Source: Rariglobus sp.
Lineage (GTDB): Bacteria; Verrucomicrobiota; Verrucomicrobiia; Opitutales; Opitutaceae
Reading direction: 5' to 3'
NCBI GenBank assembly: GCA_029266495.1
Contig: JAQSWS010000028.1
Coordinates: 5,417 to 62,275, forward strand
Length of the DNA: 56,859 nucleotides
Made by a program: the position numbers and the translations under genes. The notes under the pieces were generated by a model. That model had not been told where the DNA came from. It was given only the letters and a program-made list of their open reading frames with translations, and made no database searches. Below are positions 32,108 to 53,602 of the stretch, one piece after another. Each line of letters opens with the position of its first letter. The stretch's first letter is position 1.

Positions 32108-33682
32108 ATGTCCAAGATCATCCCGTTCGACTCCGCCGCCGCTTCCGCCCCCGCGCCCGACTTCAGCGCGCTCATCGCGGAGCTCCAGCATGCGACCGGC
32201 AGCGTCTTCGCCCCCCAGGTCCTCGACGAACGACCGCTCTACGGCACCACGATCTATCTCGCCACCTGCTCGCTCGACACGCGTTTCGGTCCGTTTCGCG
32301 CCTATATTTTCCAGGACCTGATCGACAAGCACTACATCATCGCCCTTACCCACGGCGACATCCGCGACGCGGACACCCTCCACACGCGCATCCACTCGTC
32401 GTGCGTCACCAGCGAAACGTTGCGCGGTTGCGATTGCGACTGCGTCCAGCAGCTCGAAGGCGCCTTCAAGGTCATCGCCGAGAAAGGCCGCGGCATTCTT
32501 TTCTATCTCATGCAGGAGGGACGCGGCGTCGGCTACGTCGGCAAATCCCGCGACCGCATGCTCGTGCAAGCCTCCCTCGACCAGCTCTCCACCTTCGAGG
32601 CCTACGCCGCGATGGGCCTCAAAAAGGACCACCGCAACTACGAGAACATTTCCCACATCTGCCACCTGCTCGGCCTCAAGGCGTCCTTTACCGTCCTCAC
32701 CAACAACCCCGACAAAATCGACGCCCTCCGTTCCCAAGGCATCGTCGTCGCCGGCACCGAGACGCTCGAATTCGAGCCCGGCCCTTTCAACCTCGCCTAC
32801 CTCACGTCAAAGGCCGCCGGCGGCCACATCCTCAAGCGCCCGTCCGCCACCACCATCAAGCGCGCCCTCCCGCCCGAGCCGGTTGTCCTCTTTAAACCGA
32901 GCGCCCTGCCCGAGGCCCGCCGTTTCATTTACTCGGCCAGCTATTTCCTGCCGATGAAACCGGTGGACGACGACATCCTCCTCACCGAGGCCCAGTTCAA
33001 AGAGCTGTTCCGCCAGCAATCCATCGAACGCTACATGGCCGGCCCGCGCCCGCTGGTGCTCGGTTATGAACTCATTCGCGACGACCGTTTCTTCGTTAAA
33101 ATCGCGACGGACCATCTCACCGCCTTCAAAAAACAAAATCCGCACGACCCCATCGTCGACCTGCTGACCACGCCTTACTGGTTTCGCGTCCACGTGTATT
33201 ACGACATCGTGACCAGCGAGGATTTCATCGTGCTCACCCACGGGAAACCGCGCGCGATCGACACGCCCGTGGTGCGCATCCACAGCGAATCCCTCTTCAA
33301 CCGCTTCCCGCTCCGCGCCACCGGCAACCGCGACAAGCTCAAGGAGTCGGTGAAGCACATCGTCACCTACGGCAGCGGCGCGCTCCTGCTCCTGCACAAC
33401 GACGGACGCGGCGCGGGCTTCGGCGCCTTCGCGACCGATGCGATGATGGCCGAGAACGGCCAGGCCACCACCACCGATGACGCCTATCGCAAGCTCGGCG
33501 TGGCCTACGACAGCCGCGACTACGACGCGTCGCTGACGCTGTTGAAGCACCACATTCCCAACGAAAAAATCCAGATGGTGATGAACTCACCCGACAGCCT
33601 CGTCAAAAAACCCGAATACGCCGAGGCCCTCAACCGCCACCACATCGACGTGGACCGCTGGATCTTCCTCGATCACGAATGA
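32108..33682 (+). CDS. Tandem GTP cyclohydrolase II-like protein
   Basis: 524 residues made of two RibA-like units. The first (about 45-245) keeps the zinc cysteines (HSSCVTSETLRGCDCDC), a EGRGVGYVGK active-site loop and TNNPDKI. The position matching the catalytic Tyr of RibA (RAYALQ) reads RDRMLVQ here, so the product may differ from the riboflavin precursor. The second (about 345-510) has the same fold trace (RIHSESLFN, NDGRGAGFG, VMNSPDSL) but no zinc cysteines. No riboflavin genes are nearby. It follows a purine permease by 20 bases, so it may act in purine or pyrimidine turnover instead. Confidence 0.8.
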   Translation: MSKIIPFDSAAASAPAPDFSALIAELQHATGSVFAPQVLDERPLYGTTIYLATCSLDTRFGPFRAYIFQDLIDKHYIIALTHGDIRDADTLHTRIHSSCVTSETLRGCDCDCVQQLEGAFKVIAEKGRGILFYLMQEGRGVGYVGKSRDRMLVQASLDQLSTFEAYAAMGLKKDHRNYENISHICHLLGLKASFTVLTNNPDKIDALRSQGIVVAGTETLEFEPGPFNLAYLTSKAAGGHILKRPSATTIKRALPPEPVVLFKPSALPEARRFIYSASYFLPMKPVDDDILLTEAQFKELFRQQSIERYMAGPRPLVLGYELIRDDRFFVKIATDHLTAFKKQNPHDPIVDLLTTPYWFRVHVYYDIVTSEDFIVLTHGKPRAIDTPVVRIHSESLFNRFPLRATGNRDKLKESVKHIVTYGSGALLLLHNDGRGAGFGAFATDAMMAENGQATTTDDAYRKLGVAYDSRDYDASLTLLKHHIPNEKIQMVMNSPDSLVKKPEYAEALNRHHIDVDRWIFLDHE

Positions 33683-33767: not shown

Positions 33768-35252
33768 GTGAACGTATCCCTGACAGTCGATTACCGCGTA
33801 ACCTGGCTGCCCACCCTGTGCTCGTTCGTGACCGAAACCGCGCGCGCGCTCGGGGCCGACGAGACCGAGCGGGAAAAACTTCACCTGGCCGCCGAGGAGA
33901 CCGCCATGCACATCATGGAGTCGATTCCTCACGATGACCTGGAGGACTCCTTCGAGGTGATCTGCGCGCCCCAGGTGGACGGAGTGGAATACATTTTTAA
34001 AAACCTGGGGCCGCCGGTCAACGTCGCCGCCCTGCCCGCCTACGACCACCAGGCCCCCGAGGAGTCGATCGAAGGCCTGCGCCTGTTTCTGGCCCGCAAG
34101 ATGGTGGACCGGCTGGAGTTCATCAACCAGGGCCGCGACGGCTGGCGCACCACCGTCTTCAAGCGGCTTCAGGCCATGAAACCGCTCGCCGCCACGGTCA
34201 CGGCGCCCTCCGGCGAGCCCGGGCCCCGTCCCGCCCCCGGCTCCGAATCCGTCACCACCGCGATCGCCCGGCCCGCCGACGCCTTCGAGATCGTCCAGAT
34301 GGCGTATCATAATTATCGATACTCGTATGCCAAGGAGTCGTTCTACTACGCCGAGAAACTGCAGGTGGAGCTGGCGTCAAAACAGACGGTCTCGTTTATC
34401 GCCCGGATCCAGTCCGGTCCTATCGTCGGCCACCTGGCCCTCTTCACCAAGGAACACAGTCCGACGGTCCGTGAGGTCGGCGCCGTGATGGTGAGGCCCG
34501 ACTACCGCCGCTCGCGCGCCCTGCTCTCCCTTCTCAAAACCGTCCTGCGCTACGTGGACGAAAATCCCGAGCGCCTCGACTTCTACATCTCAAATCTCGT
34601 CACGGCCCATACGCTCTCCCAGAAGCTCGCCGCGACCATGGGCATGAAGCCGCTGGCGCTGAACGTCTCCACCCACCCCCGCGCCCGGTTCATGGGTCTG
34701 CAGTCCGCGCAGGGGCGCGAATCCAACCTCTATGCCGTGCGCGTGAATCGGGAACAGGCGCCCACCTCGATCTATCTCCCGCCCGTCCACGCAGCCATCG
34801 CAGCCCGGCTGTTTGGCAATCTGGCACTCAACGTCACGCTCCTCACGGACACCGCCGAACCAACCGAGGCCCAGACCACCTGGACCTCCAGCTACGATGC
34901 CAAGGCCGGCTACGCGACCCTCACGGCCGACCGCTATTGCGTGGATTTCCCGAACTCCCTGCGCGCAGCCGCCTACAAACTGTTCCTGGAGAAAGTCGAG
35001 ACGCTCGCCCTCCGTCTTCCCGCCTGGCAGCCGCTTCCTCCGGGCCTTGAGGAGGAACTTCAAAAGCAGGATTTCTTCTTCTGCGGCTTCGTCCACCACA
35101 ACGAGGGCCGCTGGCACCTGGCCTACTCGCGGCTGGTTCAGCAGCATTTTTCCTTCGACGATGCCCAGGTGTTTGATCCCGTCGCCGAAGAATTGAAGGC
35201 CTATGTGGCCGGCCGCCACCAACAACTCATCACCACGGGAATTTTATCATGA
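33768..35252 (+). CDS. HATPase (RsbW-like) and GNAT hybrid protein
   Basis: 494 residues. The N-terminus (about 1-140) looks like an anti-sigma/GHKL ATPase domain, with an N-box-like AAEETAMHIME at 41-51 and a VEYIFKNLGPP strand. After a Pro/Ala linker, a GNAT acetyltransferase-like domain (about 165-340) has EVGAVMVRPDYRRSRALLS. A C-terminal region of some 150 residues has no assigned fold. It starts at GTG 33768 after a pyrimidine-rich leader. The gene ends in an ATGA overlap with the ATP-grasp/GH3 gene, so it heads a three-gene operon. Whether it regulates the operon or modifies its product is open. Confidence 0.7.
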   Translation: MNVSLTVDYRVTWLPTLCSFVTETARALGADETEREKLHLAAEETAMHIMESIPHDDLEDSFEVICAPQVDGVEYIFKNLGPPVNVAALPAYDHQAPEESIEGLRLFLARKMVDRLEFINQGRDGWRTTVFKRLQAMKPLAATVTAPSGEPGPRPAPGSESVTTAIARPADAFEIVQMAYHNYRYSYAKESFYYAEKLQVELASKQTVSFIARIQSGPIVGHLALFTKEHSPTVREVGAVMVRPDYRRSRALLSLLKTVLRYVDENPERLDFYISNLVTAHTLSQKLAATMGMKPLALNVSTHPRARFMGLQSAQGRESNLYAVRVNREQAPTSIYLPPVHAAIAARLFGNLALNVTLLTDTAEPTEAQTTWTSSYDAKAGYATLTADRYCVDFPNSLRAAAYKLFLEKVETLALRLPAWQPLPPGLEEELQKQDFFFCGFVHHNEGRWHLAYSRLVQQHFSFDDAQVFDPVAEELKAYVAGRHQQLITTGILS

Positions 35253-37810
35253 ATGGCTGGATCCTCCACTCCGGGCAACCGCTCCCCGAAATACGCCGCG
35301 GCATCGACGAAGCCGCCGCCAACAAAATCAAGATCGAGCTCGTGGACCCGAAGGAAGTCGACCTGGTGCTGGATCCGCAGGCCACGGCGATTCTGCTGCG
35401 CGGAGCCCCGGTGCCCCTGCCCGACTTCGTGATCGCCGCGTTTCTCGAGGAGCCTGACTACTACAACATCGCCCTGCTCCGTCACCTCGAGTTGCTCGGC
35501 TCGCTGTGCGTGAACACCGCGCAGACAATCCAGAACACCGGTGACAAACTTCTCACCCATCACCTGCTGGTCAGCGCCGGCATACCCACCCCGCGCACGC
35601 TCCTGCTTCATCGCGGAATGACCGCCGGCGACGTGTTGCGCCATTTTGAACTGCCCCTCGTCTTCAAGCTCCTGAACGGTTCGAAAGGCGAAAGCGTCGA
35701 ACTCATCCACACCCGCGACGAACTCGAAAAACGCCTCGCCCTCCTCAGCCAGTCGGCCTCCGGCCAGCACTGGCTCGCCCAGGATTACATCAAGCGCAGC
35801 CATGGTCGCGACCTGCGCGTCCTCGTGATCGATCGCAAGCCTGCCGTCGGCATGCTGCGTCAGGGTGCCGCCGGCAGCTTCAAATCCAACTTCTCGCTCG
35901 GCGGCAGCGTCTCGCACTGGCCGCTCACCGACGAAGTCCGCGCGCTCGCTCAAAAGGTCATCGACGCCGTCGGCCTCAATATCGGCGGCATCGACCTTCT
36001 CTTGAACGACGGCGAATTCCTGGTGTGCGAAGCCAACTCCATGCCCGGCTTTCAAGGCATCGAAAAATGCTGCGACCTGAACGTGCCCGCGGCGATTTTT
36101 CGCTCCATCGGAAAACAGCTCGCCTACAAGCGGAAAAGCCCCTTCCAGATGCGCGCCTTCTTGAGCGCCGAAAGCGGCCCCCTTTCGATCTGCGAACGAC
36201 TCGCCGCGAGCCGGGATGCGGACGCCCTCAACTACTTCATCGGCCTCTGCGACGACCCCGAACGGGTTCAACGCGCAGTCTTGAACGACATCCTCACCCG
36301 CAATGCCGGCAGCGCCCGCGGGCAGGCGCTCGGGTTCCGGGAGATCACCGATGTCGAAGGCTTCCGCCAGCGGGTGCCCGCGTCCGACTGGACGGCCTGC
36401 GCCGACGACGCCCGGCGCATGGAAACGGGCGAAACCGACCTGCTTTTTGAAGGGGCGACCAAACATTTCCTCATCACCAGCGGCAGCACCGGCAAGGCGA
36501 AATACCTGCCCGAGAGCGATCGCGGCGCCCTGGCCAAATCCATGACTGGCCGTCTGCGCACCACCGCCATCGCCCGGCAAAACCCCGGCCTGCTGGAAGG
36601 CGCCATCCTGCCCCTGTCCAACAGCCCGACCTTCGGCACCACCTCCGCCGGCATTCCAATCGGCTCGGCGTCCGGCCTGACCCTCGCGGCCGTTCCGGCC
36701 AGTTTTCAAAAACGCATGGCATTCCCGATCGACTGCTACGCCATCGATAAACCGGCGGTGCTCGATCAGGTCATCATGCGCCTGGCCCTCGAACAGGATG
36801 TGCGGGCGATCATCACCAACAATGCCGCGCGCGCGCAGCAACTCTTCGAACTGGCCCGCGCCTCGGCGCCCGCGTTTATCCAGGACATCGAAGCGGGCTC
36901 GCTCTCCCCTGAACTGGACCTCCCTGCGGACCTGCGCGCAAAGATCGAGGCCACGCTCAAACCGAATCCCGCGCGCGCCGCGGAGTTGCGCGCACTGCTG
37001 GCGGACGGACGTTTCTCGCCTCGTTACTACTGGCCCAAACTCTCCATTTTCTCGTGCTGGTTGGCGGGCTCGGTCGGCCGGTTCGCCGCCGGCATCCGCA
37101 ACGTTCTCCCCGAGACCTGCCGCCTGTTTGATTGCGGCTACGGAGCGAGCGAGGGGAAGTTCAACATCCCCCTCAAACCGGAAACCCCGGCCGCACCGCT
37201 GGCGATTCACGCCGGCTTCTACGAATTCATCCCGCTGGAGGGCGGCGCGCCGCTGCTCGCGCATGAACTCAAGGACCAGACCTCCTATCAATTGGTGGTC
37301 ACGAATTATTCGGGTCTCTATCGCTACGATATTCACGACATCGTCCGGGTGGACGGCTTCACCGGCCGGACTCCCAATATTTACTTCGAAACCAAGAGCG
37401 GTGAAATCGCCAACCTCGCCGGCGAAAAAATTTCACCGACCACGGTGATGCAGTCGTTCGAAGCCCTGCCGTCCGAACTCAAAAACCAAGTCCGGCATTA
37501 TGCGCTCCAGGAGGGTAAAAAAGATCACCACTGGCTCTGCCTTGAGCCCAAGGAAGGCGAGGTGCTGGACGCGGAACGTTTCGGACGGCTCTTCAACGAG
37601 GCGATGGAAACAATCTCGACGGTCTATAAATTGTTGCGCGGGCAGAGCGTCATCCAGGACTGCCGCACGGTCGTGCTGCGACCGGGCTGGCAGGCCTCCC
37701 TCTATGCCCGTCGTGTCACCCCCGGACAAAGCACCGCGCAAGTAAAGTTACCCGTCATTCTGCGCGAACCGCTGGACGAAACGCTGGTCGCCTACCGCCA
37801 GGCTGAGTGA
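35249..37810 (+). CDS. ATP-grasp ligase fused to GH3-type amide synthetase
   Basis: 853 residues. The N-terminal part (about 1-290) is a RimK-like ATP-grasp ligase: DKLLTHHLLVSAGIPTPR, LPLVFKLLNGSKGESVELI, and the metal-binding VCEANSMPGFQGIE. The C-terminal part (about 330-850) has the GH3 acyl-adenylating signatures FLITSGSTGKAKYLP (about 405), CGYGASEGKFN (about 629) and VVTNYSGLYRYDIHDIVRV (about 685-700). GH3 enzymes join carboxylic acids to amino acids through an acyl-AMP; ATP-grasp ligases make peptide or amide bonds through an acyl phosphate. So one polypeptide may form two amide bonds. Start and stop both overlap neighbours by 4 bases (ATGA, GTGA). Confidence 0.85.
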   Translation: MNGWILHSGQPLPEIRRGIDEAAANKIKIELVDPKEVDLVLDPQATAILLRGAPVPLPDFVIAAFLEEPDYYNIALLRHLELLGSLCVNTAQTIQNTGDKLLTHHLLVSAGIPTPRTLLLHRGMTAGDVLRHFELPLVFKLLNGSKGESVELIHTRDELEKRLALLSQSASGQHWLAQDYIKRSHGRDLRVLVIDRKPAVGMLRQGAAGSFKSNFSLGGSVSHWPLTDEVRALAQKVIDAVGLNIGGIDLLLNDGEFLVCEANSMPGFQGIEKCCDLNVPAAIFRSIGKQLAYKRKSPFQMRAFLSAESGPLSICERLAASRDADALNYFIGLCDDPERVQRAVLNDILTRNAGSARGQALGFREITDVEGFRQRVPASDWTACADDARRMETGETDLLFEGATKHFLITSGSTGKAKYLPESDRGALAKSMTGRLRTTAIARQNPGLLEGAILPLSNSPTFGTTSAGIPIGSASGLTLAAVPASFQKRMAFPIDCYAIDKPAVLDQVIMRLALEQDVRAIITNNAARAQQLFELARASAPAFIQDIEAGSLSPELDLPADLRAKIEATLKPNPARAAELRALLADGRFSPRYYWPKLSIFSCWLAGSVGRFAAGIRNVLPETCRLFDCGYGASEGKFNIPLKPETPAAPLAIHAGFYEFIPLEGGAPLLAHELKDQTSYQLVVTNYSGLYRYDIHDIVRVDGFTGRTPNIYFETKSGEIANLAGEKISPTTVMQSFEALPSELKNQVRHYALQEGKKDHHWLCLEPKEGEVLDAERFGRLFNEAMETISTVYKLLRGQSVIQDCRTVVLRPGWQASLYARRVTPGQSTAQVKLPVILREPLDETLVAYRQAE

Positions 37811-39042
37811 GCGTTGAAACCATCATGAGCAGCGCGACCCCGGTCCCCGCCAGGACCGTTCCCCGTCTTCTGGCCTCGATCTTGGTGGCCATCTGCCTGA
37901 CGCGGCTCGGCACCAGCATCTTCCTGCCCGCGCTGCCGATGATGCAGACGAGCCTCGGTGTTTCCCTCGAAGCGCTGAACGCGACGCTCACGGTGTTCTT
38001 TATCGCCTATGCCGCGGCGACCTTGGTGGCCGGACCGCTCGTCGATAGCTTCGGACGCCGGCCAGTCATTCGACTGGGGTTGATCGTATTTATCGTCGGA
38101 TCGCTGCTCTGCGGTTTCGCGCAGGCGATGCCGCAGCTCTGGTCGGGCCGCATTTTACAGGCCGTGGGGGTCGCGTTCATTCCCGTGGCCGGCCGCGTGA
38201 TGGTGCGCGACGTGTGCGACGATCGCCAGATGCTCTCCGCGCTGGGCTGGATCAGCGCAATCAGCAGCGTGGGCCCGATTCTGGCTGCGGTGCTGGGTGG
38301 CGTAATCGTCAAACACGCCGGATGGCAGGCGACGTTCCATGTGCTCTCACTGGCGGGTGTCGCCGTCACCGCTTTCATCTGGCGGAGCCTCCCGGAGACG
38401 ATCACCGAACCGAAGCCCTTCAGCCTTGGCTCGGCGCTTCGCAGCTATGTCCGCATGCTGGCCTCGGGAAGCTTTTCGATCGTCGTCCTGCCGGTCTCGT
38501 TGTGCTTTGCCCTCCAGGGAGTCTATTTTGCGGCGGCGCCCTACATTTTTGTGCACAGCTTCAAGCTGAGTCCGGCCGTCTTCGGCCTTTCCAACATTGT
38601 CCTCCTCGCGGCGTTGTTGTGCGGGCGCCCGCTCGCACTCTTCTTGTCGAAACGGTATTCCACGTTCACGGCCTACGTGACTCCAGCCGTCCTGACCGTC
38701 ACGGCGGGAGTGTTGCTGCTGTATTGGGTCAGGACCGATACGATCAACCCCGTGAAGTTTTTGTGTGCGACCGGTCTCTACTGCATGGGCTTTGGCGCAA
38801 TGGTTCCTGTCGGCATGCAGTCCATCCTTACCGCGTGGAAATCCGAGGGCGGCAAAGCCTCGTCGCTGTTCGGATTCAGCACCTTCGGGGCGATGGCATT
38901 GGGTTCGTTCGCCGTGGGGGTGTTAAGCGAGAATCCGGACGAAACGCTGGAGGTGATGGCCTTCCTGACCTTTGCCTTCGGCTTGCTGGTGTTGCTCTCA
39001 GCCGCCCTCACCCGGGGCTTTTTGCAGAAACGCAAACCATGA
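37807..39042 (+). CDS. MFS exporter, Bcr/CflA-like
   Basis: 411 residues, 12 TM helices. The family loops are present: AGPLVDSFGRRPVIRLGL between TM2 and 3, LQAVGVAFIPVAGRVMVRDV in TM4, and an ILAAVLGGVIV segment. Bcr/CflA proteins export bicyclomycin-like drugs, dipeptides or metabolites. GTG 37807 overlaps the previous stop codon (GTGA), which argues for co-translation; ATG 37825 is the alternative. It probably exports the product of the upstream synthetase. Confidence 0.88.
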   Translation: MSVETIMSSATPVPARTVPRLLASILVAICLTRLGTSIFLPALPMMQTSLGVSLEALNATLTVFFIAYAAATLVAGPLVDSFGRRPVIRLGLIVFIVGSLLCGFAQAMPQLWSGRILQAVGVAFIPVAGRVMVRDVCDDRQMLSALGWISAISSVGPILAAVLGGVIVKHAGWQATFHVLSLAGVAVTAFIWRSLPETITEPKPFSLGSALRSYVRMLASGSFSIVVLPVSLCFALQGVYFAAAPYIFVHSFKLSPAVFGLSNIVLLAALLCGRPLALFLSKRYSTFTAYVTPAVLTVTAGVLLLYWVRTDTINPVKFLCATGLYCMGFGAMVPVGMQSILTAWKSEGGKASSLFGFSTFGAMALGSFAVGVLSENPDETLEVMAFLTFAFGLLVLLSAALTRGFLQKRKP

Positions 39043-49017: not shown

Positions 49018-50718
49018 TCAGGTGTATTTGATAATTTCCTCGATTGAGGTCGCGCCATCAAAAATAGAGCGGAGGCCGTCGTCTCGCAATGTGCGCATCC
49101 CCTGTTCGAGGGCCTTTTGCTTGATCACCATCGTGGAGGCGCGGGCCACGACCAAGTCGCGGACGGCTTCGCTCAGACGGAGCCATTCATAGACGCCCAT
49201 GCGACCCCGATAACCGGTGTTGCTGCAATGCTCACAACCGCGGCCGTAGAAAAACTCGCGATTGCCGATGTCAACCGGATCGATGTTGAGCTGTTGAAGG
49301 AGCGCGGCCGGCGGTTCGTAGGGGGTCCGGCAGCTCTTGCAGATCCGGCGGACAAGTCGCTGGGCCAGCACCGCTTCCAAGGAAGAGGCGATCAGGAACG
49401 GTTCCACACCCATGTCGACGAGACGCGTGACCGCGCCGGGGGCGTCGTTGGTGTGGAGGGTGGAGAGCACCAAGTGACCGGTGAGCGACGCCTGAATGGC
49501 GATCTGCGCAGTTTCCAAGTCGCGGATCTCACCCACCATGATCACGTCAGGATCTTGACGGAGGAAGGAGCGAAGGGCGGCGGCAAACGTGAGGCCGACG
49601 GCATGGTTCACCGGCACCTGCATGATACCCTCGATCTCGTATTCCACGGGATCTTCAGCCGTGAGGAGCTTGAGATCGGGGGTGTTGATGACGCGAAGGG
49701 CGGAATAAAGCGTGGTGGTCTTGCCCGAGCCCGTGGGACCGGTGACGATGAAGATGCCGTTCGGCCGCCTGATGATCTCGGTGATGCCTTCATACACGTC
49801 CGTCGGCATGCCCAGCGCGGTGATGTCGAGTTGCACGGCGGACTGGTCGAGCACGCGAAGCACCACGGATTCGCCGAACTGGGTGGGAAGCGTGGAAACG
49901 CGAAGGTCAACCGGGCGTCCGGCGAGGGTCAGCTTGATGCGGCCGTCCTGCGGAATGCGGCGTTCGGCGATGTTGAGGCTGGCGAGCACCTTCACGCGCG
50001 AGGTGATGGGAAGCGCAAGGTGCTTGGGCGGAGGCGCCATTTCGTAGAGCGCGCCGTCGATGCGATAACGGATCTTGAACTCGTGCTCGAAAGGCTCGAA
50101 GTGGATGTCGGAGGCCTTGTCGCGAATGGCCTGGCCGATGACGAGGTTGACGAAACGGATGATCGGCGTCTGGCCGGCCATCGACTCGAGATCGTGCTCG
50201 GAGAGGTCCCGGTCGGCCCCCTGCGGGCCGTCGTGATCGTCGCTCGACATCTCCCGAAGAAGATCGTCGATGGTGGCGTCGTCGTCGCCGTAATGAAGCT
50301 TGAGCAACCCGTCGATACGACCGGGATCGGCAACGACCAGGCGCACGTCCTTGCCAAGGGCAAAGGTAAGGTCGTCGATGACCTGGCTGTTGAAGGGATC
50401 GGTGGCCAGCAGATCGATGCTCTGGGCGTCGACACGCAAGGGAACGACGCCATACATGCGGGCGAGGCTGCCCTGGACGGCGTTGACCACCTCGTTGGGG
50501 ATGTCGCCGGCGTGGCCCTCGAGATATTCGCAGCCCAGGTGGGCGGCGATGGTGCGCAGGAGCGTGGCCCGGTCGACCAGCCCCATCTCAACGAGGAGGT
50601 CCGCAACGGGTTTGCCCGTGGCTTTGTGCTCTTCGTTGAGATCGTTGAGGGTTTCGGGTGCGACCAGGTGATGATCGCGGCAAAGTTCCAGAATGGCCTG
50701 ACTGTGGCTTTCGAACAT
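49018..50718 (-). CDS. PilB/GspE-type assembly ATPase, copy 2
   Basis: 566 residues. N-terminal GspE-N domain (about 1-150), then the hexameric ATPase: [20 protein letters not shown], Walker [11 protein letters not shown] (about 325), Asp box and Walker [12 protein letters not shown], His box [14 protein letters not shown]. The zinc tetracysteine is complete (ICKSC and GCEHC). This domain order is that of an assembly motor. It lies between pilT and pilC; a second close homologue sits just upstream of pilT, so one cluster carries two assembly-type motors. Confidence 0.93.
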
Positions 50719-50769
50719 AGGGTAACCGGCGTGAGCCGACGGAAGGGGAAAGCGATTGCGGTTTGAAAA

Positions 50770-51852
50770 TTAGAGTTGGCGGAGCTGTGCACCCATCGCG
50801 AGAAGTTTCTCCCGCATGACCAGCGGATCCTGGGCTTTGTCGAGCGCCTCGTCGGGAGTGACGAGGTCCCGGTTGACCAGGCTCATGAGATGGGCGTCCA
50901 GGGTAATCATACCAAGGCTGGCCCCGGTTTGAATATCGGAGGAAATACGGAAGGTTTTATTTTCACGAATGAGCGAGGCGATCGAGGTCGTGTTGACCAT
51001 GATTTCGTAGCCGGCAATGCGCCCGCCACCGATCTTTTTGCACAAAACCTGGGAAATCACCGCCACGATCGACGACGCAAGCTGCGTGCGGATCATGTCT
51101 TTCATGTTCGCGGGAAAGGCGTCCACGATACGGTCAATGGTCTTCGCCGCGCCGTTGGTGTGAAGGGTGCCGAACACCAGATGGCCCGTTTCGGCCGCGC
51201 TGATCGCAGCCTCGATCGTTTCCAAATCACGCATTTCACCGACAAGAATGATGTCCGGATCCTGGCGGAGGGCGCGACGGATCGCCTCGGAGAAACTGGG
51301 AACGTCAACGCCCACTTCACGCTGCGTGACAATACAGTGCTTGTGCGGATGATAATATTCGATCGGGTCCTCGATCGTGATGATGTGGCCGTCGCGAGTC
51401 TCGTTGATGTAATTGATCATCGCAGCGAGCGTCGTCGACTTGCCGGAACCAGTCGGGCCGGTGACGAGGATGAGGCCGCGGGGACGATAAAGCAGTTCGC
51501 GAACCTTGTCCGGGATCCCGATTTCCCGGAGGCTATACATCTTGTTCGGGATCTGGCGCAGAACCAGGCCGTAGTTGCCCTTGGCCCTCAGGATGCTCAC
51601 GCGCAGACGCGCCTTGTCGAGATAGGCGAATCCGAAATCGGACCCGCCGTTCAGCTTCACGTTCTGCTGATGATTGTCCGGCGTGATCGAAAGCATCAAC
51701 TGCTCGGTATCGGCGGGGGTGAGCAGAGGTCCGTCAATGGGCACCATGCCGCCGCTGAGGCGAAGCGTGGGCGGCTGGCCGACCTGCAGGTGAAGATCGG
51801 AGGCGCCCTGGTCCACCACCAACTCCAGCAGGTCATTCATTTCGTAACTCAT
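50770..51852 (-). CDS. pilT: Pilus retraction ATPase PilT
   Basis: 360 residues. Starts at ATG 51852 ([22 protein letters not shown]). Walker A GPTGSGKS at 132-139, [21 protein letters not shown], and the retraction-specific SLIRENK block that corresponds to the AIRNLIRE motif. It lacks the GspE-N domain and zinc cysteines, as expected of PilT. Powers pilus retraction for twitching and DNA uptake. Lies 19 bases after copy 1 of the PilB-type ATPase and ahead of copy 2. Confidence 0.96.
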
Positions 51853-51871
51853 AAAAATGGCCGGACCGGGT

Positions 51872-53602
51872 TTAACTGGCGTCGCCCACCGTGATCGAGA
51901 CAACTTCGTCGATCGAGGTCTGGCCGGCGAGGACCTTGCGCACGCCGTCTTCGCGCATGGTGCGCATGCCGAGGGAGCGGGCTTTGTCGCGCAGCTTGGC
52001 GGTGCCGACATTGTCGTAGATCATGCGCTGGATCTCTTCGTTGACCACAAACATTTCGAAGATGCCGGCGCGGCCGCGGTAGCCGGTGCCATTGCAGTTC
52101 TGGCAGCCTTCACCACGCATAAAGGTCGCGGTGGATGCCTGCTGCGCCGTGATGTTCAGCGAACGGAGTTCGTTGGCGTCCGGCGTATACGGCTTCTTGC
52201 ATTGCTTGCAGATCTTGCGGGTGAGGCGCTGGGCCACTGCGGCGCGCAACGAACTCGACACAAGGAACGGCTTCACGCCGATGTCGATCAAGCGGGTGAT
52301 CGCGCCGGGGGCGTCATTGGTGTGGAGGGTGGAGAACACCATGTGGCCGGTGAGCGAGGCGTTGATGGAAATTTCGGCCGTCTCCAAGTCACGAATCTCA
52401 CCCACCATGACGATATTCGGCGCCTGGCGCAGCATGGAGCGGAGCGCCGAGGCGAAGGTCATGCCGACGTCGTGGCGGACCGGCACCTGGTTGATGCCCG
52501 CGAGCACATACTCGACGGGATCCTCCACCGTGATGATCTTGCGGTCGGGCTTGTTGATGAAATGCAGGCAGGAATAGAGCGTCGTCGTCTTGCCGGAACC
52601 GGTCGGTCCCGTGACCAGCATGATGCCGTCCGGGAGCGAAATGAGACGCTCCACGATCGCCTGGTCGTCGCTGAAGAAACCAAGCTCGGGCAGACCGAGC
52701 TGAAGCCCGTCCTTGTCGAGAATACGCATGACAATACTCTCGCCGTGCGCGGTCGGCAGGGAGGACACACGCAGGTCGATCTGCTTGCCCGTCATGTTAA
52801 TTTGAATACGACCGTCCTGCGGGATGCGCTTCTCGGCGATCGAGATGTTGGCCATGATCTTCAACCGGGAGATCATGGACAGCTGAAGGCGCTTCGGCGG
52901 ATTTTCGATCTCGAGCAACACGCCGTCGATGCGGTAGCGCACCCGGAAACGTTTCTCGAGCGGTTCAAGATGAATGTCGGACGCACGCCGCTGGATCGCC
53001 TCCAGAATGATCTGGTGAACAAGCTTGATGATCGGCGCATCGCCTTCCTCGCTGGAGGAGGTGCCGTCCACGGCCACGGTCGAGACGGTGGCCGCTTCGG
53101 CACCCCCGACCGAAAAGTCGTTCAGCATCGCATCCAGCTCGCTGGCATCCTTGCCATAGAAACGTTCGATGGTGTGCTTGATTTCGTCGGCGGGCGCCAC
53201 GGACGGCTCGATGGTGAGCTTGAGCACATGGCCGAGGCTGTCGATTGCATCGACATCGAGCGGGTCGCTGATGGCGAGTTGAAGCACCCCGCCCTCCTTC
53301 GAAAGCGGGAACACATTGTAGCGAACCGCCATCGCGCGCGGCACGAGCGCCATTGCCTCCGGACTGGGAACCCGCAACGCGGCCAGGTCGACAAAAGGCA
53401 TGCCAAACTCGTCCGCCAGCAACTTGCTGAGCTGGCGGGACTGGACCGCGCGGTTGGCGATCAGGATTTCGACCACCTTGGGAGGAGCGGTGGTGAGGTC
53501 GGTATGGGCCGCAATCTGCTCATTGGCGGCATCGATCTGGGCTTGCGTGAGCACGCCCTTGTCGAGGGCGAGCTGTAGGACGAAATCATCGGCGGGAGTC
53601 AC
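51872..53602 (-). CDS. PilB/GspE-type assembly ATPase, copy 1
   Basis: 576 residues with the same plan as the copy at 49018-50718: N-terminal GspE-N domain, [20 protein letters not shown], Walker [40 protein letters not shown] and the zinc cysteines (ICKQC, GCQNC). The start is GTG 53602. It is first in the motor cluster and lies 61 bases after rho, so read-through from rho is possible. Whether it or its sister serves pilus or secretion assembly cannot be told from sequence. Confidence 0.93.

Follow-up and report, generated by a model that had tools for sequence, protein, structure and literature searches.

What would a bacterium make with two different carboxylate-activating ligases joined in a single protein? 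This question is raised by a locus in a 56,859-nucleotide stretch of DNA from Rariglobus sp. of the Verrucomicrobiota (contig JAQSWS010000028.1 of GenBank assembly GCA_029266495.1, positions 5,417 to 62,275 of the forward strand), the whole of which we call the window. The locus consists of three consecutive genes, A, B and C. Gene A encodes a protein with an RsbW-like and a GNAT-like part, gene B a RimK-type ATP-grasp ligase fused to a GH3 amide synthetase, and gene C a putative exporter of the major facilitator superfamily (MFS). A preliminary description of the window had regarded the three genes as coupled by 4-base overlaps, which agrees with the open reading frames (ORFs) and with the two stop/start overlaps read in the sequence (Table 1). 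We see about an even chance that A, B and C form an operon for an amide or pseudopeptide pathway independent of non-ribosomal peptide synthetases (NRPS). Judged from their gene content, A-B-C probably make and secrete a small peptide-like compound.

Both halves of B were recognised by domain models. The Pfam families Rimk_N and RimK (E 4.6e-35) as well as the N, M and C domains of GH3 (E 4.2e-48, 2.9e-18 and 3e-5) all scored above cut-off, the three GH3 domains reaching 164.6 (PF03321), 66.2 and 25.1 bits against a cut-off of 23.6 each. The ATP-grasp half resembles the RimK family alpha-L-glutamate ligases, as it exceeded the cut-off of TIGR00768 (189.6 vs 143.4 bits) and agreed with E. coli RimK at 12 of the 12 positions compared in an alignment. 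It differs from the S6 ligase RimK in scoring below the cut-off of the model PRK10446 (134 vs 331 bits) and in its tree position, the RimKs of the gene set forming a clade of their own (100/99) distinct from the group that contains E. coli RimK, in a tree for which the program warned of long branches. In the GH3 half, the motifs TSG.T.G..K, YGASEG and YRY...D, which we take to be nucleotide-binding motifs, are present when aligned with 11 other bacterial GH3 proteins, and the other members of its clade keep them too, with small changes. The roles of the signature residues in both halves are those usually given to them in the two families. The closest solved relatives of B in a PDB search were RimK enzymes and GH3 enzymes of plants, and the predicted structure of B had a mean predicted local distance difference test (pLDDT) value of 49.8. 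The above-cut-off domains and the signature residues kept in each half bear out the earlier view that the middle protein is a RimK-type ATP-grasp and GH3 fusion. The active sites had been considered decisive if lost from both halves, but the checked signature residues are retained in each, and both ligase halves appear intact.

The gene set recurs in other genomes. A contig scan, which reaches close relatives only, gave Candidatus Tharpella aukensis (L003; hereafter Tharpella) as the sole relative. Its gene order is RimK, GH3a, GH3b, MFS and A, all as separate genes, with identities to the window of 36% for A, 40% for MFS, 36-37% for GH3 and 35% for RimK. Within a 387-genome sample of the phylum, genome G207, which belongs to another Verrucomicrobiota family, carries A-B-C in the same order and with B fused (A 40%, RimK 50%, GH3 45% and MFS 41% identity; the fused relative of B, 45%). 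In a third genome, G258, A, GH3 and MFS are spread over three contigs, and a fourth carries at its edge a C-terminal fragment of an unfused RimK; the MFS protein is 50% identical to that of Tharpella. The relatives of A in the three genomes are 35-40% identical to the window's A. That G207 and Tharpella both carry the set, with identities of about 35-50%, is more than chance. Thus, A and C accompany both ligases in two other genomes, which answers the earlier question of whether the GNAT hybrid and the MFS gene travel with them, and the one other fused copy found, in G207, also lies beside A and C rather than alone among varied neighbours. As a hallmark of the locus the fusion holds for the window and G207, but it is not obligatory, RimK and GH3 being separate in Tharpella and G258.

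Phylogenetic trees agree with this recurrence. In a tree of 22 chosen bacterial GH3 rows, which left out the partial L131, the GH3 proteins of the window, G207, Tharpella and G258 formed a 100/100 clade. The A-family alignment contained 43 rows, one for the window and one, the top match, for each of 42 loci; the tree of 38 rows left out L034, L035, L058, L061 and L092, which are partial, split, truncated or without the RsbW part. Here, the A proteins of the set and that of G331 formed a 100/100 clade, to which L058 and L061 were assigned from motif and similarity alone. Support for grouping Tharpella with G258 was moderate in both trees (88/86 and 92/82). The window was grouped with G207 in the A tree (90/72), while the GH3 tree did not resolve the relation of these two. 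The gene set is rare: GH3-clade matches occurred in at least 3 of the 387 genomes (G000, G207 and G258; the next best match had E 1.6e-85) and in at least 1 of the 395 genomes sampled for Tharpella's phylum. Proteins of the A clade were found in at least 6 of the 387, by tree in G000, G207, G258 and G331 and by motif and similarity in G406 and G409. The wider A family was met in 17/387 and 67/395 genomes at E 0.001; given this spread, the gene set probably recruited A from an older family.

Gene C encodes an MFS_1 protein (PF07690, 144.6 bits vs a cut-off of 33.4; E 4.5e-42). Its best model is TIGR00710 (Bcr/CflA), at 178.8 bits under the cut-off of 200.9, and the cluster copies in G207 and Tharpella are 40-41% identical to it. 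A passage of PMC3429515 connects dipeptide transport with the MFS protein YdeE, and an exporter of the kind predicted for C would suit a small peptide. In the pathway that we favour, the GH3 half of B would convert an acid into an acyl-AMP and couple it to an amino acid, after which the RimK half would activate a carboxylate as an acyl-phosphate and add a further amino acid. The resulting acyl-amino acid or acyl-dipeptide would be exported by C, and A would assist or regulate the ligases as a partner protein rather than work as an acetyl-CoA-dependent enzyme. The presence of two carboxylate-activating ligases in one chain suggests two successive amide bonds, which may be made in the order given, and the fusion could channel the intermediate from one half to the other. 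A secreted amide or small peptide, as proposed in the preliminary description, is still the best inference for the product.

The same ligases and exporter could also serve to conjugate and expel toxic compounds. Plant GH3 enzymes conjugate hormones to amino acids; in a similar way the GH3 half would tag a toxic acid with an amino acid, the tag would be extended by the RimK half and a multidrug-type exporter would remove the conjugate, no dedicated natural product being involved. The multidrug exporter models closest to C, the plant enzymes among the solved GH3 relatives of B and the sparse distribution, which fits an optional trait, are in line with such a detoxification. However, two or three dedicated ligases exceed the needs of simple conjugation, and the partner protein A recurs with them. 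Moreover, there is no toxin-responsive regulator among the named neighbours (a permease, a GTP cyclohydrolase-like gene and tyrS), although regulators were not searched for. We therefore regard detoxification as unlikely.

The proposed amide pathway leaves A to be accounted for. HATPase_c_2 matched A above the Pfam cut-off (E 2e-7), whereas the GNAT family PF00583 remained just under it (20.5 vs 20.7 bits) and PF13527 reached 19.8 against 25 bits, so that only the first part of the earlier label HATPase-GNAT is carried by an above-cut-off match. None of the NCBIfam models matched the window's A, and PF00583 was matched by 19 of 25 A-family members at E 0.01. A profile of 25 A-family members matched RsbW 6m36 at E 2.2e-21. 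Structural comparison covered mainly residues 1-136 and 161-304: residues 1-135 of the model aligned to RsbW 6m37_C with Z 16.3 and a root-mean-square deviation (rmsd) of 1.9 over 115 residues, and the middle part aligned to many GNAT proteins with Z of about 8-9.4, on a model of low confidence (mean pLDDT 52). The RsbW-like part is clear from profile and fold, whereas the evidence for the GNAT part comes from profiles and a poor model. For the C-terminal part, a second GNAT half is possible. Foldseek matched A to the tandem GNAT 2wpw over 359 columns (TM-score 0.16-0.23, rmsd 21), and hhalign gave an in-register match to the first GNAT half that was not significant (E 0.06, probability 0.9%); for the last 188 residues a PDB search gave nothing credible (2 matches, E 1.3 and 3.3). 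RsbW-GNAT proteins of about 500 amino acids form a widespread family (L066-L094), with shorter relatives of about 350 amino acids that match the GNAT and C-terminal parts only; in Tharpella's phylum, a single genome can give as many as 4 matches.

The A proteins of the set have altered motifs in both recognisable domains. The N-box Asn, which serves Mg-ATP in RsbW-type kinases, is replaced in 6 of 6 scorable members of the set's A clade (His in four, Phe in two; the ORF of one member lacks the domain) and kept in 26 of 34 other A-family members with an RsbW domain. At the motif-A Gly of the GNAT part, all 7 members of the clade carry another residue (R, M, T or Q), compared to Gly in 27 of 36 others; in the R-x-x-G cofactor loop of the window's A, Arg247 is kept and the Gly has become Arg250. 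Some A-family members outside the clade also lost the Asn or the Gly. In profile and fold its N-terminal domain thus resembles the RsbW/SpoIIAB anti-sigma kinases, but A differs from them in the His or Phe of the N-box and in being joined to a GNAT-like domain. Since the ATP-binding Asn and the cofactor-loop Gly are replaced throughout the scorable clade, a regulatory or scaffolding role is more probable for A than an acylating one, and we infer a protein of signalling ancestry without canonical ATP and CoA binding.

Alternatively, A could be a working enzyme whose GNAT-like fold N-acylates the product from an unusual donor, acyl carrier protein instead of CoA, giving three acylating steps in all. 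GNATs of the LuxI and FeeM type differ in the CoA loop, and the N-acyl amino acid synthase FeeM was among the many GNAT rows (Z 9.1, rmsd 3.5, 112 aligned). However, FeeM ties with unrelated GNATs on the low-confidence model, and the replacement of the motif-A Gly by four different residues resembles relaxed constraint. An acylating A is distinctly unlikely in our view. The residues replaced at both sites speak against the earlier suggestion that the GNAT domain could acylate the product, whereas the remainder of that interpretation, with an intact-looking fusion, travelling A and C genes and an exported amide, has held up.

Membrane aminolipid synthesis, in which the GH3 half would make an N-acyl amino acid lipid, the RimK half would extend the head group and C would be a lipid transporter, has a precedent in OlsH, a bacterial GH3 enzyme that makes lyso-ornithine lipid according to a passage of PMC12493201, and B gave a partial match to the OlsH model NF052613, but this match reached only 39.9 bits against a cut-off of 620, Pfam gave no OlsI-like alpha/beta-hydrolase for any of the three proteins, and the best models for C are multidrug exporters, all of which makes it very unlikely.

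The pathway that we favour has its nearest parallels in systems which make amide bonds in a similar way. Dapdiamide (DdaF, an ATP-grasp ligase, and DdaG, an amide bond synthetase) and E-64 (Cp1B and Cp1D) receive two amide bonds without an NRPS (PMC12568646), and like our locus they combine one ATP-grasp ligase with one adenylating amide synthetase. In E-64 biosynthesis, the adenylating partner is an amide bond synthetase of the ANL family and the two enzymes are separate. Here, in contrast, GH3 is the predicted adenylating ligase, it is fused to a RimK-type ATP-grasp enzyme in two genomes, and an RsbW/GNAT-like partner recurs. No AMP-binding (ANL-type) family was among the Pfam matches of A, B and C at E up to 1, so the adenylating role would fall to GH3. 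OlsH and the GH3 half of B share the bacterial GH3 family, and the lyso-ornithine lipid made by OlsH is an N-acyl amino acid (PMC12493201); the GH3 of our set differs in lying far under the OlsH cut-off, in being fused to or beside a RimK ligase and in lacking an OlsI-type protein in A-C. PMC12493201 also states that GH3 homologues are widespread in bacteria and largely unexplored in function, which makes the earlier remark that GH3 proteins are best known from plant hormone conjugation incomplete.

In the open-licence literature we found no description of a GH3-RimK fusion, of this gene set or of an RsbW-GNAT combination. The preliminary description had not recognised a known pathway, and that literature indeed gave none pairing GH3 with an ATP-grasp or RimK ligase in this way. 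The chemistry is known, while we regard the combination, with its fusion and unusual partner, as new. The locus would offer a compact, defined system linking GH3 to an ATP-grasp ligase and an exporter, through which the product could be traced. Enzymatic amide synthesis would benefit from a bifunctional enzyme with both carboxylate-activation chemistries, and an RsbW-GNAT partner with altered motifs raises the question of how signalling domains are reused in biosynthesis. Taken furthest, the locus could stand for a new class of NRPS-independent peptide pathways, in which a bifunctional RimK-GH3 ligase uses an acyl-phosphate and an acyl-adenylate in one chain, a pseudo-kinase/pseudo-acetyltransferase partner gates or scaffolds the assembly, and a so far undescribed family of secreted acyl-peptides is common to the Verrucomicrobiota and Candidatus Tharpellota. 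This is a tentative extension, which we think may well prove wrong.

Several points weigh against an amide pathway encoded by A-B-C. The pathway is predicted from its genes, and the altered motifs are not proof of an inactive A. C is the weakest link of the set, MFS families being large, and G207 has a second MFS on another contig that is 69% identical to the cluster copy. In G331, G406 and G409, which have A-clade proteins, no B match was found at E 1e-20, so A can occur without the ligases, and in G258 the fetched contigs and the stretches around the scattered parts contained no further part of the set. In favour of the set, all three GH3-clade genomes are among the six A-clade genomes of the 387 (hypergeometric P about 2e-6), but this value ignores the relatedness of the genomes and relies on an A clade that was defined after seeing the data and includes G406 and G409 without tree placement. 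No more than 2 to 4 candidates were scored for each genome in these searches, so the counts of clade members are lower bounds. Finally, a promoter scan detected no sigma-70-like site in the 85-base gap upstream of A. It placed one terminator-like site on the + strand where C ends (39004-39018; 9 such sites were found vs 4.5 expected in shuffles), so that A-C and the upstream gene might share a transcript.

How the set came to this genome was addressed by comparison with relatives. A full-length B match was found in 0 of 12 genus-mates and 0 of 43 other relatives. In five genus-mates, no match to A, B, C, the permease or the GTP cyclohydrolase-like gene was present inside the 19 kb fetched around tyrS, a gene named in this analysis from its sequence alone. 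G001 is syntenic to the right of tyrS and not to the left, which places a breakpoint between C and tyrS; the left end of the insertion was sought by neighbourhood comparison and not found. A match to tyrS was obtained in 11 of the 12 genus-mates, at 88-94% identity, and this speaks against the contig being a contaminant. The GC content and the GC content at third codon positions (GC3) of A-C resemble those of the flanks, so any acquisition looks old; recent foreign DNA is not backed by this composition. A viral origin was rejected as scans of viral contigs gave no relative. Among the 40 plasmid and 20 phage matches listed (71 plasmid and 26 phage records), no single place covered 80% of B, and only partial RimK or GH3 matches were seen. 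The plasmid RimK relatives L095 and L096 gave one B match per record, and no A, GH3 or MFS was detected within the surrounding 12.9 kb. An anti-phage defence system was likewise rejected, as A, B and C matched 0 PADLOC families at E 0.001.

Table 1. Coordinates of the A-B-C locus and its parts, numbered from the first letter of the window
Feature	Position	Strand	Description	Basis
Gene A	33768..35252	+	494 amino acids, GTG start; RsbW-like (HATPase_c_2) domain, GNAT-like domain and C-terminal part	ORF call, Pfam
RsbW/SpoIIAB-like domain of A	33768..34172	+	Residues 1-135; N-box Asn position is His48	
GNAT-like domain of A	34248..34679	+	Residues 161-304 (approximate); Arg250 (34515-34517) at the motif-A Gly position	
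C-terminal part of A	34680..35249	+	Residues 305-494 (approximate); perhaps a second GNAT-like half, suggestive only	
A-B stop/start overlap	35249..35252	+	ATGA	Read in sequence
Gene B	35249..37810	+	853 amino acids; RimK-type ATP-grasp fused to GH3 amide synthetase	ORF call, Pfam, NCBIfam, PDB search
ATP-grasp half of B	35249..36118	+	Residues 1-290; K100, K140, R190, R204, N214, D249, E261 and N263 kept	
GH3 half of B	36236..37768	+	Residues 330-840; TSGSTGKAK (410-418), YGASEG (631-636), GLYRYDIHD (689-697)	
B-C stop/start overlap	37807..37810	+	GTGA	Read in sequence
Gene C	37807..39042	+	411 amino acids, GTG start; Bcr/CflA-like MFS exporter	Pfam, NCBIfam

The GTP cyclohydrolase-like gene was rejected as a member of the set, as the regions fetched on either side of the set in G207 and Tharpella contained no match to it, to the permease or to tyrS. 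It occupies positions 32108-33682 of the window, 85 bases upstream of A, and encodes a GTP cyclohydrolase II-like protein of 524 amino acids in which two stretches, apparently in tandem, match the GTP cyclohydrolase II model.

Other bacterial GH3 genes were found in contexts different from A-B-C. In four Verrucomicrobiota genomes (L129, L130, L131 and L132), the GH3 gene adjoins a gene for an enolase-superfamily (MR_MLE) enzyme, and in one of them, G239 (L132), the GH3 protein also contains a fused fatty-acid hydroxylase domain. On a Streptomyces plasmid, a GH3 gene (L097, 5965-7635) lies near genes for a polyketide synthase and a cytochrome P450 and near thrS. Because of these neighbours, natural-product clusters may include bacterial GH3 genes; one is also listed for the rubiginone cluster, with no function assigned in the passage concerned (PMC8487521). 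Elsewhere in the window, at 49018-53602 on the - strand, three adjoining ORFs encode type II/IV secretion ATPases (T2SSE), two of which contain an MshEN domain.

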